NCBI GenBank assembly: GCA_947466965.1
Contig: CANIFU010000005.1
Span: 1-64,000 of the forward strand
Direction of reading: 5' to 3'
Length of the DNA: 64,000 bases
DNA from: Bacteroidota bacterium
GTDB lineage: Bacteria > Bacteroidota > Bacteroidia > 2-12-FULL-35-15
Shown: positions 191 through 13,665 of the stretch, piece after piece
Position numbering within the stretch: the first letter of the stretch is position 1
How the letters are laid out: each line of letters begins with the position of its first letter
The notes under the pieces: model-generated
Told to the model about the DNA's origin: nothing
Databases searched by the model: none
The model's input: only the letters and a program-made list of their open reading frames with translations
Translations under genes and position numbers: made by a program

Positions 191-2566
191 TCACTTTTTT
201 ACACTCACTATTTCAAATCGCTGAACAATAGATTCACCTGCTTCATCCACAAGGGTGAGCGAATGCATTCCTTCATTCGGTGACATGCCCATTTGGTGTA
301 TGTTTTGTGTGCTACCAATAAATTCACTATCCAAATGCCAGTAGATGATAGCATTTGCATTCCGATGTGCTACTTGAAAAATTGTTTTACCCATTGTGCC
401 ATCAATTTCCACTGGAACATATATCTTACTAAATTGCTTTGGGTAGATTATTTCCATGCCACCGAATCCCTCTGTTTCACAATCGCTACGCAATGGTGGT
501 AATTCAATGTAAGTTGAATTTTTTGATTTGTAATACCATTCAATTGCAGGAGGGAGTACAAACCAGGGAATGTGTTTCATTTTACTAACATCTTCACAAT
601 TACTATTTACACGGTATTTACCACTTTCATCCAAATGGATCATTCGGTGATAGTTGCAAGGCTCCGTTCGTAATCCTTTTTTTTGAATCCAGTTGCTGTC
701 TGTCGGTTCACAAATATCATTGGCCCTGCATCCGCTTTGTAGGCATATTTTTACTTTTTCCATTTCATCGTAAGGCGGCGAAAACCATTTTCCTGGTTTT
801 AATAAACTGAAAATGTCAAATAGGATAGGAGCCGCTGTTTGAATTCCAACTAATCCTGGGCGCCCTTCTCCATCTGCATTTCCAACCCAAACACCTATAA
901 CGTATTTGGGAGTTAAACCAATTGCCCAGCCATCTCTGAATCCAAAACTTGTTCCTGTTTTCCATGCAACTTTTGTAGCAGAAGTATATTGTTTCCATCC
1001 TGCATCTTCATCCGGTCGTGATACTTCAACCATTGCTTCGAATGTAAAATAAATGGATGCAGCATCCAGCATTGTTGCATTTTCTAGTTCGATCTTTTTT
1101 TTATCTTGAAGGGTATAATAAGGAGGATGATAATCATTCTTATCGTATTTACCATTGTATGAAGAATAATGATTCAACGTTCGCGCCATGCTCGCATACA
1201 TGCCAGTGATGTCCCAAAGTTTTCCTTCTGCACCTCCAAGTATTACAGATAATCCATAATGGTCGGGCGAATAGGTGAGTGTGGTCATGCCTAATTTCTT
1301 TAGTTTGTAATTGAACTTTTCAATTCCATAACGTTGAAGCATCCTAACAGCAGGGATATTTAAACTCCTTGCCAAGGCTTTTTTTGCAGGAACGGCACCG
1401 TCAAATGTTTGATTGTAATTTTGTGGCACATAACCTGCAATTTGAGTTGGTATATCTGGAATTAATGTTGTAGATAATAGTTCTCCATCATTCAGCATCG
1501 ATGCAAATAAAAATGGTTTTAAAATACTTCCAGTGCTTCTGGGAGCATTAATAACATCTACATCACTTTCGTATTCATGCTTTTTTTTATTGTTGGTATT
1601 GCCAACATATGCTAGAACAGTTCCCGTTTCAACATCTAAAACAATTGCACAGGCATTGTGAATTTCATTGCCTTTTAAAATTCTATGATGATTTTCAATT
1701 ATCGTATTTACACGTTCTTGTAGGTGTCCATCGAGTGTTGAAATAATTCGTTTCCCCGAAAGATTTTCTTTTACAGCTCTTTGTAAAAGGTGAGGCGCAA
1801 TTTGTGGAATGGCGTGCGGTTTTCCTGTTAATGGTTCTTGCTTTCCTAATTCACATGTTTCTTTGTCAATTATTTTTGCAATAAAAAGTTGGTCCAATAA
1901 ACGATTTCTTTTAATTAATAAACGATTTTGATTTTTCCCAGGATAAATTAAACTTGGTGCATTGGGTAATACAGCCAAGGTAGCTGATTCGGCCCATGAA
2001 AGTTTTGAGGGATCCCTACCAAAATATCTCCAGGAAGCGGCATCAATTCCTACAACATTACTTCCGAATGGTGCATTGGAAGAATAAAGTGAGAGTATTT
2101 CTTTTTTTGAATAACTGAACTCTAATCGGGTTGCTAAAATTAATTCAATAAGTTTTTCAAAATATGTTCGCTTCTGTCCTTTTCTTGAAAGTCGGATTAC
2201 CTGCATGGTGATGGTGCTGCCCCCACTAACCTTTCTTTTCTCAGATATGTTTTGTTTAATTGCTCTTGCAATTGCACTCGGACTAACTCCCCAGTGGGAA
2301 TAAAACCCACGATCTTCAAATTGTACAATACAGTCGATAAATTTTTGTGGTACTTTTTCTGTTAATGGAAAACGCCATTGCCCATCTTCAGCAATTTTAG
2401 CAGATAATAGCATCTCGTTTTTATCTTCTAATACCGTACTTGTTTTTGTTTTAAATAAAGGAGTAGGTAAACTAAAAAAATACCAAAGGAGAAAGATGAA
2501 AAGAATAATTGATATGATTCCTTTTTTACTTTTTAGAAATTGTATGATCGAAGGAATATTTTTCAA
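191..2566 (-). CDS. pbpC: Penicillin-binding protein 1C (transglycosylase/transpeptidase)
   Basis: GT51 motif EDRGFYSHWGVSPSAIARA and GGSTITMQ; transpeptidase SILK and KTGTSFGFRDGWAIG; PBP1C-like C-terminal region. Confidence 0.92.
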   Translation of the reverse strand: MKNIPSIIQFLKSKKGIISIILFIFLLWYFFSLPTPLFKTKTSTVLEDKNEMLLSAKIAEDGQWRFPLTEKVPQKFIDCIVQFEDRGFYSHWGVSPSAIARAIKQNISEKRKVSGGSTITMQVIRLSRKGQKRTYFEKLIELILATRLEFSYSKKEILSLYSSNAPFGSNVVGIDAASWRYFGRDPSKLSWAESATLAVLPNAPSLIYPGKNQNRLLIKRNRLLDQLFIAKIIDKETCELGKQEPLTGKPHAIPQIAPHLLQRAVKENLSGKRIISTLDGHLQERVNTIIENHHRILKGNEIHNACAIVLDVETGTVLAYVGNTNNKKKHEYESDVDVINAPRSTGSILKPFLFASMLNDGELLSTTLIPDIPTQIAGYVPQNYNQTFDGAVPAKKALARSLNIPAVRMLQRYGIEKFNYKLKKLGMTTLTYSPDHYGLSVILGGAEGKLWDITGMYASMARTLNHYSSYNGKYDKNDYHPPYYTLQDKKKIELENATMLDAASIYFTFEAMVEVSRPDEDAGWKQYTSATKVAWKTGTSFGFRDGWAIGLTPKYVIGVWVGNADGEGRPGLVGIQTAAPILFDIFSLLKPGKWFSPPYDEMEKVKICLQSGCRANDICEPTDSNWIQKKGLRTEPCNYHRMIHLDESGKYRVNSNCEDVSKMKHIPWFVLPPAIEWYYKSKNSTYIELPPLRSDCETEGFGGMEIIYPKQFSKIYVPVEIDGTMGKTIFQVAHRNANAIIYWHLDSEFIGSTQNIHQMGMSPNEGMHSLTLVDEAGESIVQRFEIVSVKK

Positions 2567-12775: not shown

Positions 12776-12806
12776 TTTGTTTTTAATCAAAAAAAGAGTA
12801 ATTTTG
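12776..12806 (+). promoter_or_regulatory. Bacteroidota consensus promoter
   Basis: TTTG (12776-12779), 19 nt, TAATTTTG (12799-12806): exact match to TTTG-N19-TAnnTTTG. Confidence 0.75.
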
Positions 12807-12811
12807 CAGTC

Positions 12812-13097
12812 TGAAAGAGCTTTTTAGTTTGAATTTAATGAAACGCTTTTTTGTTTTCTTTATTAGTAAGTGTTTTAGAAGATTTGTTGTAAGAATGTAA
12901 GCAAGGCTAAACCACCACTTCTTCTGCCAATTCGAGTTAGTGTTGATTGTTATAGATTTTATTCTTGTTGCAGAAAATATTTAACAACAAATCATGAATA
13001 GAATGACATTGCCCAAGGCAATTTTTAATAATTAGATTTAGTTTAGAGATTTGTCTAATTAAGTATGACCCATTGCAGAAATGCAATGGGTTTTTTT
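12812..13097 (+). ncRNA. Candidate structured non-coding RNA, about 285 nt
   Basis: Consensus promoter upstream and strong terminator at the 3' end; no credible ORF; helices 12813-12820/12845-12852, 12881-12890/12984-12993 (10 bp perfect), 12922-12927/12970-12975, 13008-13013/13017-13022, 13029-13036/13054-13061. Confidence 0.65.
13068..13097 (+). terminator. Strong rho-independent terminator
   Basis: ACCCATTGCA-GAAA-TGCAATGGGT, 10-bp perfect stem with GAAA tetraloop, continuing into a T-run. Confidence 0.9.
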
Positions 13098-13191: not shown

Positions 13192-13665
13192 ATGCAATCT
13201 AAAGCAACTACTGTTAATCAATATATCGCTGAATTACCCGAAGCAAGGGTTGAAGCCTTTAAGAAATTAAGAAAAGAAATTTTACAAAATCTTCCGAAAG
13301 ATTTTCATGAATGTATAAATTATGGGATGGTTGGTTATGTTATTCCGCATTCAGTTTATCCTGATGGTTATCATTGCGATCAAACTCTTCCCTTACCATT
13401 TGCTGGCATTGCAAGTCAAAAAAACTTCATTGCCTTTTATCATATGGGAATTTATGCTGATCCCAAATTATTGAAATGGTTTTTATCAGAATACGCTAAA
13501 CATACCGATGTAAAATTAGACATGGGGAAAAGTTGTATCCGCTTTAAAAAGCCAGAACATATTCCTTTTAAATTGTTTGGTGAACTAATGCGCAAGGTTA
13601 GTGCAAAAGATTGGATATGGCTTTATGAATCGGCTTTTAAGCCAGTCGTAAAGAAAAAACAATAA
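13192..13665 (+). CDS. DUF1801 domain-containing protein
   Basis: MQSKATTVNQYIAELPEARVEAFKKLRKEILQNLPKDFHECINYGMVGYVIPHS...; recognisable DUF1801/YdhG-like fold pattern. Confidence 0.75.
   Translation: MQSKATTVNQYIAELPEARVEAFKKLRKEILQNLPKDFHECINYGMVGYVIPHSVYPDGYHCDQTLPLPFAGIASQKNFIAFYHMGIYADPKLLKWFLSEYAKHTDVKLDMGKSCIRFKKPEHIPFKLFGELMRKVSAKDWIWLYESAFKPVVKKKQ

Follow-up and report, generated by a model that had tools for sequence, protein, structure and literature searches.

The window, by which we mean the whole 64,000-nt stretch of DNA analysed here, is contig C5 of the 3.1-Mb draft genome G000 and comes from a genus of uncultured Bacteroidia; the relatives named below are metagenome-assembled genomes throughout. 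A gene of the nitronate-monooxygenase family (NMO, PF03060; 11551-12552) and a DUF1801 gene (13192-13665) flank an interval in which the sequence-only reading had placed a self-contained transcription unit for a structured RNA, and each of the sequences quoted in that reading is indeed present where it had been reported. The Bacteroidota-type promoter TTTG-N19-TAATTTTG lies on the plus strand at 12776-12806. The bare promoter pattern is not rarer in the window than expected by chance (2 found vs. 5.1 expected); at the orthologous locus of relatives the promoter is kept in place, whether the reading frame behind it is intact, decayed or deleted. Among the 15 genomes that share the 3' element described below, 12 have the TTTG form, G020 has a TTTT variant and G028 a near match, while in G001 the promoter position falls off the contig end. 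Transcription would be expected to start near 12811-12815 and to end at a Rho-independent terminator on the same strand (13067-13097), recognised by a pattern match, whose hairpin (13067-13092) and T-run are both present as had been proposed. In the alignment of the 15 loci the sequence of the terminator stem changes on both sides, with the pairing kept.

The sequence between these two signals has a coding history. A DNA search of 59 relatives returned matches in two blocks, one on the promoter side and one at the 3' end, with a diverged middle, because the middle corresponds to a lipoprotein ORF that is intact, decayed or deleted, depending on the genome. In nine relatives this promoter and this 3' end enclose an intact ORF of 129-132 aa. 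Its products carry a lipoprotein-type signal and the conserved C-terminus [VI]A[KQS]GN[FY] or a close variant, followed by the stop codon; they have no match in Pfam or NCBIfam, and a dN/dS of about 0.12-0.31 indicates purifying selection. Aligned with the intact G010, G016 and G006 ORFs, 12838-13028 of the window (plus strand) is recognisable as a remnant of this ORF, ancestrally of about 130 aa, which is frame-broken and about 200 bp shorter, with the last codons and the stop at 13008-13028. The statement that the interval holds no plausible ORF is thus correct for the window but not for the relatives, which have one there. Likewise, ATTGCC-CAA-GGCAAT is present, but it represents what is left of the last codons of the lipoprotein (...AVAKGNF-stop in relatives).

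The ORF status of the 15 element-bearing genomes is as follows: intact in 9, cut by the contig end in one (G001, whose contig begins inside the ORF), and decayed or deleted in 5. In addition to the broken ORF of the window, only fragments are retained in G025 and G032, and the ORF is absent from G008 and G020, where the distance from the promoter to the 3' element is reduced to 13 nt and 41 nt, respectively. In the NMO tree, G000 groups with G025, whereas G032, G008 and G020 are separate, and G028, the sister of G008, has an intact ORF. This separation of the ORF-less lineages, together with the intact sister, indicates that the ORF was probably lost several times while the 3' element stayed.

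The proposal of a single structured non-coding RNA of 280-290 nt, 6S-like or of a new family, had drawn on the promoter and terminator lying 290 nt apart, and it can also point to the folding of the whole 288 nt, which is better than that of shuffled sequences (z -2.55). However, this value is due to the 3' end: region 13026-13097, a 72-nt 3' element, gives a fold z of -5.73 when taken alone, whereas region 12812-13007 folds no better than shuffled sequence (z +0.74). An inverted repeat of 10 nt arises in 3.8% of shuffles of the interior. Since the interior is at the shuffle level, its helices provide no evidence of structure. The complementary segments listed for it do exist, but the long-range helix, the TTCTGC/GCAGAA pair and the 5' helix fall in decayed coding sequence, which some relatives have intact and others have lost, and we rejected the long-range and nested helices as structural elements, as they are no better than shuffles and are deleted in relatives. 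The 6S-like option fares no better, as the long-range helix lies within pseudogene sequence and the RF01685 (6S-Flavo) covariance model had no match in G000 and 22 other genomes of the genus, nor in scans of the window. The 6S RNA of these 23 genomes, if present, is not recognised by RF01685. Consequently, we give hardly any credence to one long structured RNA. What stands of the self-contained unit is an ORF-free, terminator-ended stretch of the window in which only the last ~70 nt are conserved.

Conservation in relatives is pronounced for these last nucleotides. The 72-nt 3' element is nearly invariant in 15 of the 36 genomes of the genus used in the element and motif searches. It includes a plus-strand stem-loop at 13029-13061, formed by TAATTAGAT (13029-13037) and GTCTAATTA (13053-13061), and the pairing of TAATTAGA with TCTAATTA that had been noted before is the stem of this stem-loop. 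The loop contains TTTAGTTTAGAGA (13037-13049, plus strand) with the core GTTTAGAGA at 13041-13049, which we refer to as the seed. In the alignment of the 15 loci, TAATTAGATTTAGTTTAGAGA(GA)n-TTTRTCTAATTA is almost invariant and is followed by a variable spacer and then by the terminator. A covariance model built from these loci retrieved exactly the same loci at 77-98 bits from the 36 genomes, with everything else at or below 41 bits. The AT-rich stem hardly varies across the 15 genomes and so lends no covariation support of its own; the seed is placed in the loop by the alignment consensus, and single-sequence folds give it an unpaired probability of about 0.5. A search for the exact 20-mer core in a collection with one genome per GTDB species gave 14 records on contigs matching genomes of the genus. 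Two further matches, L129 and L134 (Falkowbacteria and Prometheoarchaeum), have flanks lacking the stem and the terminator and were judged to be due to chance. Where the ORF is intact, in nine genomes, its stop codon lies directly against the element, which therefore has the position of a 3' UTR and shares the terminator of the mRNA. In G008 the element begins 13 nt after the promoter, and the primary transcript would be about 75-80 nt. The comparison with Rfam that had been suggested was carried out with release 15: nothing exceeded the gathering threshold in the window or the related loci, and the best weak match (SSRC10, 29 of 56 bits) owes most of its score to the terminator, which leaves a putative regulatory RNA that is absent from Rfam.

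The broken ORF of the window might be taken as a sign of an inert pseudogene in which decay has yet to reach the promoter and terminator. We regard this as very improbable, as the 3' element hardly differs from its counterparts in relatives with diverged flanks, and as it survives ORF losses in separate lineages.

Clues to the function of the element come from matches to its motif elsewhere in the genomes. Matches with one mismatch in relatives gave the first impression of noise, which was dropped once their opposite strand was read: there they correspond to leaders of secreted-protein genes. We searched for the complement of the loop, TCTCTAAACTAAA, and read the sites individually. The loop TTTAGTTTAGAGA is complementary to UCUCUAAAC(UAAA) located 1-35 nt upstream of the starts of genes for secreted or T9SS proteins, peptidases and GldL, with perfect complementarity of up to 13-18 nt. 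In several mRNAs the region near the translation start is thus complementary to a conserved seed, as expected for targets of trans-acting sRNAs. In G000, such genes encode an FG-GAP/Ig_7 protein with a T9SS type A sorting domain, a PKD/Ig_7 protein, and a protein whose C-terminal sorting-domain match narrowly misses the Pfam cut-off. In relatives they encode Sortilin-like repeat proteins, Dpp7- and Dpp5-like peptidases and an M43 metalloprotease, and include an aminotransferase-like gene and the T9SS motor gene gldL. The gldL motif lies about 30 nt before the start, at the apparent gldK-gldL junction (L074 of G023 and L076 of G006), and the G000 gldL leader carries TCTCTAATCTAAAT, with one mismatch.

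The distribution of the sites is biased in position and restricted in phylogeny. Outside the element, the 15 element-bearing genomes contain 21 copies of the 13-mer, 14 of which are in leaders (about 1-35 nt before ATG); the other 7 comprise 5 same-strand seeds directly before terminators, one complement in a pre-terminator 3' UTR and one early coding copy. Deep-coding copies account for none of these 21, compared to 5 of 6 outside the element-bearing clade. A leader-site pattern consisting of the core TCTCTAAAC with ATGAAAAA at most 31 nt downstream, TCTCTAAACN{1,31}ATGAAAAA, has 26 matches in the 15 element-bearing genomes (1.7 per genome on average), 5 in G009, G018 and G023, which nest among the element carriers in the family A tree, and 2 in G003, an assembly without the NMO locus; orthologous targets among these matches are not independent, and the co-occurrence of element and motif across genomes is confounded with phylogeny. 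The pattern is absent from the remaining 17 genomes of the genus, as is its reversed control from the whole genus, and in 380 genomes of the class outside the genus it occurs at 0.08 per genome, near the reversed control there. Pairing extends to the TAAA in 8 of the 26 sites of element-bearing genomes vs. 1 of 29 sites outside the genus. Leader statistics were drawn from 1.2 Mb of G000 and 0.8 Mb of G010. In the G000 part, 3 of 8 copies of TCTCTAAAC are within 45 nt upstream of a start codon, a count reached by 3 of 1680 permuted words (mean 0.17). Across all leaders there is no significant enrichment of 8-12-nt words taken from the loop complement, and in duplex energies computed over 925 leaders the loop does no better overall than shuffled loops, although the top leader is the expected target. 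In G020, the seed has a G-to-A change and the family A leader has AAATCTCTCT, which complements the other half of the G020 loop; this single case is no more than suggestive.

Three genomes bear on a different explanation, in which the 3' element acts in cis on the lipoprotein transcript, stabilising the mRNA or binding a protein through its stem-loop, and a different factor reads the leader sequence TCTCTAAAC as a 5' UTR or DNA motif in its own right, the complementarity of the two being coincidental or secondary. In G023, nested among the element carriers, the element has been lost, with NMO followed directly by DUF1801, and TCTCTAAAC is kept in two target leaders; G009 and G018 also have TCTCTAAAC in leaders and no detected element. 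The possibility that such motif-bearing genomes have a diverged element was considered and discarded, as the covariance model found none and G023 has NMO directly before DUF1801. The persistence of the motif in these leaders is what a cis-acting element would allow. Yet such an element should disappear along with its ORF, and it was kept after several ORF losses; its cis action also leaves the perfect match, over up to 13-18 nt, to the complement of an invariant loop, the clade restriction of both partners and the same-strand seed copies directly before terminators to be explained, and the gldL site is within the apparent gldK-gldL junction and not at a promoter. We therefore consider the cis-acting element unlikely, though the least so of the three alternatives to a trans-acting RNA.

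In G000 there is a second apparent sRNA with the same seed, ATTTAGTTTAGAGA (L088, about 1249-1262, minus strand; G000:C12:46249), where the seed directly precedes a long terminator hairpin; it has an ortholog in L092 (G025:C20:36482), and this candidate has no match in Rfam. In L056 (about 1490-1580, plus strand; G025:C8:38230), the same seed is in the loop of a different stem, GATAATTG/CAATTATC, which is followed by a GC-rich, terminator-like hairpin. The seed TTTAGTTTAGAGA is also found immediately before a terminator at position 1500 of both L065 (G032:C1) and L085 (G024:C138), the former copy being located in the 3' UTR of another gene. The five pre-terminator copies are apparently further sRNAs with the same seed. 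The complement of the seed occurs in a 3' UTR just before the terminator in two genomes, in L091 (G035:C32) and L078 (G003:C35), and may possibly serve as a sponge for the sRNA.

Of the three options that the sequence-only reading had left side by side, it is a trans-acting sRNA that our results favour. We consider it likely that the locus encodes a 3' UTR-derived, base-pairing sRNA that acts in trans, originates from a decayed mRNA and pairs with mRNAs of T9SS and surface proteins. This interpretation is based on features that can be read directly from the genomes, namely conservation, ORF decay, seed-target complementarity, positional bias and restriction to one clade. From these we infer the transcription, processing and length of the RNA, its pairing in cells and the sign of regulation. 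The ancestral promoter at 12776-12806 would have driven a short mRNA for a lipoprotein of about 130 aa, with the stem-loop and the terminator in its 3' UTR. When the ORF was lost in several lineages, including G000, with the promoter and 3' end kept, the 3' UTR RNA of about 75 nt would have become the retained product. The mRNAs that encode T9SS-secreted surface proteins, secreted peptidases or GldL would be bound in their leaders, where UCUCUAAAC(UAAA) is predicted to pair in trans with the seed GTTTAGAGA, extended to TTTAGTTTAGAGA(GA). Pairing about 1-35 nt upstream of AUG would block ribosome loading and lower the synthesis of all these targets together, and the RNA would probably repress the translation of a T9SS/surface-protein regulon in this way. 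Such a block appears most likely because the sites overlap or adjoin the translation start. Activation through leader protection is less likely, repression being favoured by about two to one in our judgement.

Related systems have been described. In Flavobacterium psychrophilum, the sRNA Rfp18 is predicted to pair via one stem-loop with several mRNAs, which encode secreted metalloproteases and an adhesin, and in its deletion mutants target mRNA decreases, which indicates activation (PMC9723704). Compared by description only, both are Bacteroidota sRNAs with one stem-loop directed at several secreted-protein mRNAs; however, Rfp18 activates its targets, and among GTDB species genomes outside the genus only the two apparent chance hits match the present 20-nt core exactly. 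As Rfp18 raises its target mRNA, the sign of regulation proposed here is less certain. GibS of Bacteroides thetaiotaomicron is a trans-acting repressor whose conserved seed pairs at translation initiation regions, where it was shown to hinder ribosome loading (PMC7366714). The location of the predicted pairing is the same for the RNA described here, for which repression, a property of GibS, is predicted only. In contrast to GibS, which is intergenic and has its seed in an unstructured 5' part, the present RNA has the seed in a loop beside the terminator and originates from an mRNA 3' end. In the latter respect it resembles 3' UTR-derived sRNAs of enterobacteria and Vibrio, such as CpxQ and OppZ (reviewed in PMC9438474), with which it shares a conserved mRNA 3' end, a common terminator and a seed expected to act in trans, but here the parent ORF was repeatedly lost and the promoter kept, leading to a stand-alone sRNA gene. 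While trans-acting and 3' UTR-derived sRNAs are already known as a kind (PMC9438474), neither 'pseudogene' nor 'evolved from' occurs in the portion of that review's text that was searched, and neither Rfam nor the literature searched yielded this family or its regulon, the recurrent loss of a parent ORF whose promoter and 3' end stay in place, or the pre-terminator seed copies.

More tentatively, and with a little less than even confidence, we suggest that several sRNAs with one seed (that of this locus, G000:C12:46249 and others in relatives) co-regulate T9SS cargo and gldL, that their main member has been caught turning from an mRNA to a pure sRNA gene by ORF loss in several species, and that the antisense site in a 3' UTR may be a sponge. 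The locus offers a concrete set of predicted targets and a natural series of genomes in which the ORF is intact, decayed or deleted; it is a case in which the origin of an sRNA gene from an mRNA, through the loss of its reading frame, can be put to the test.
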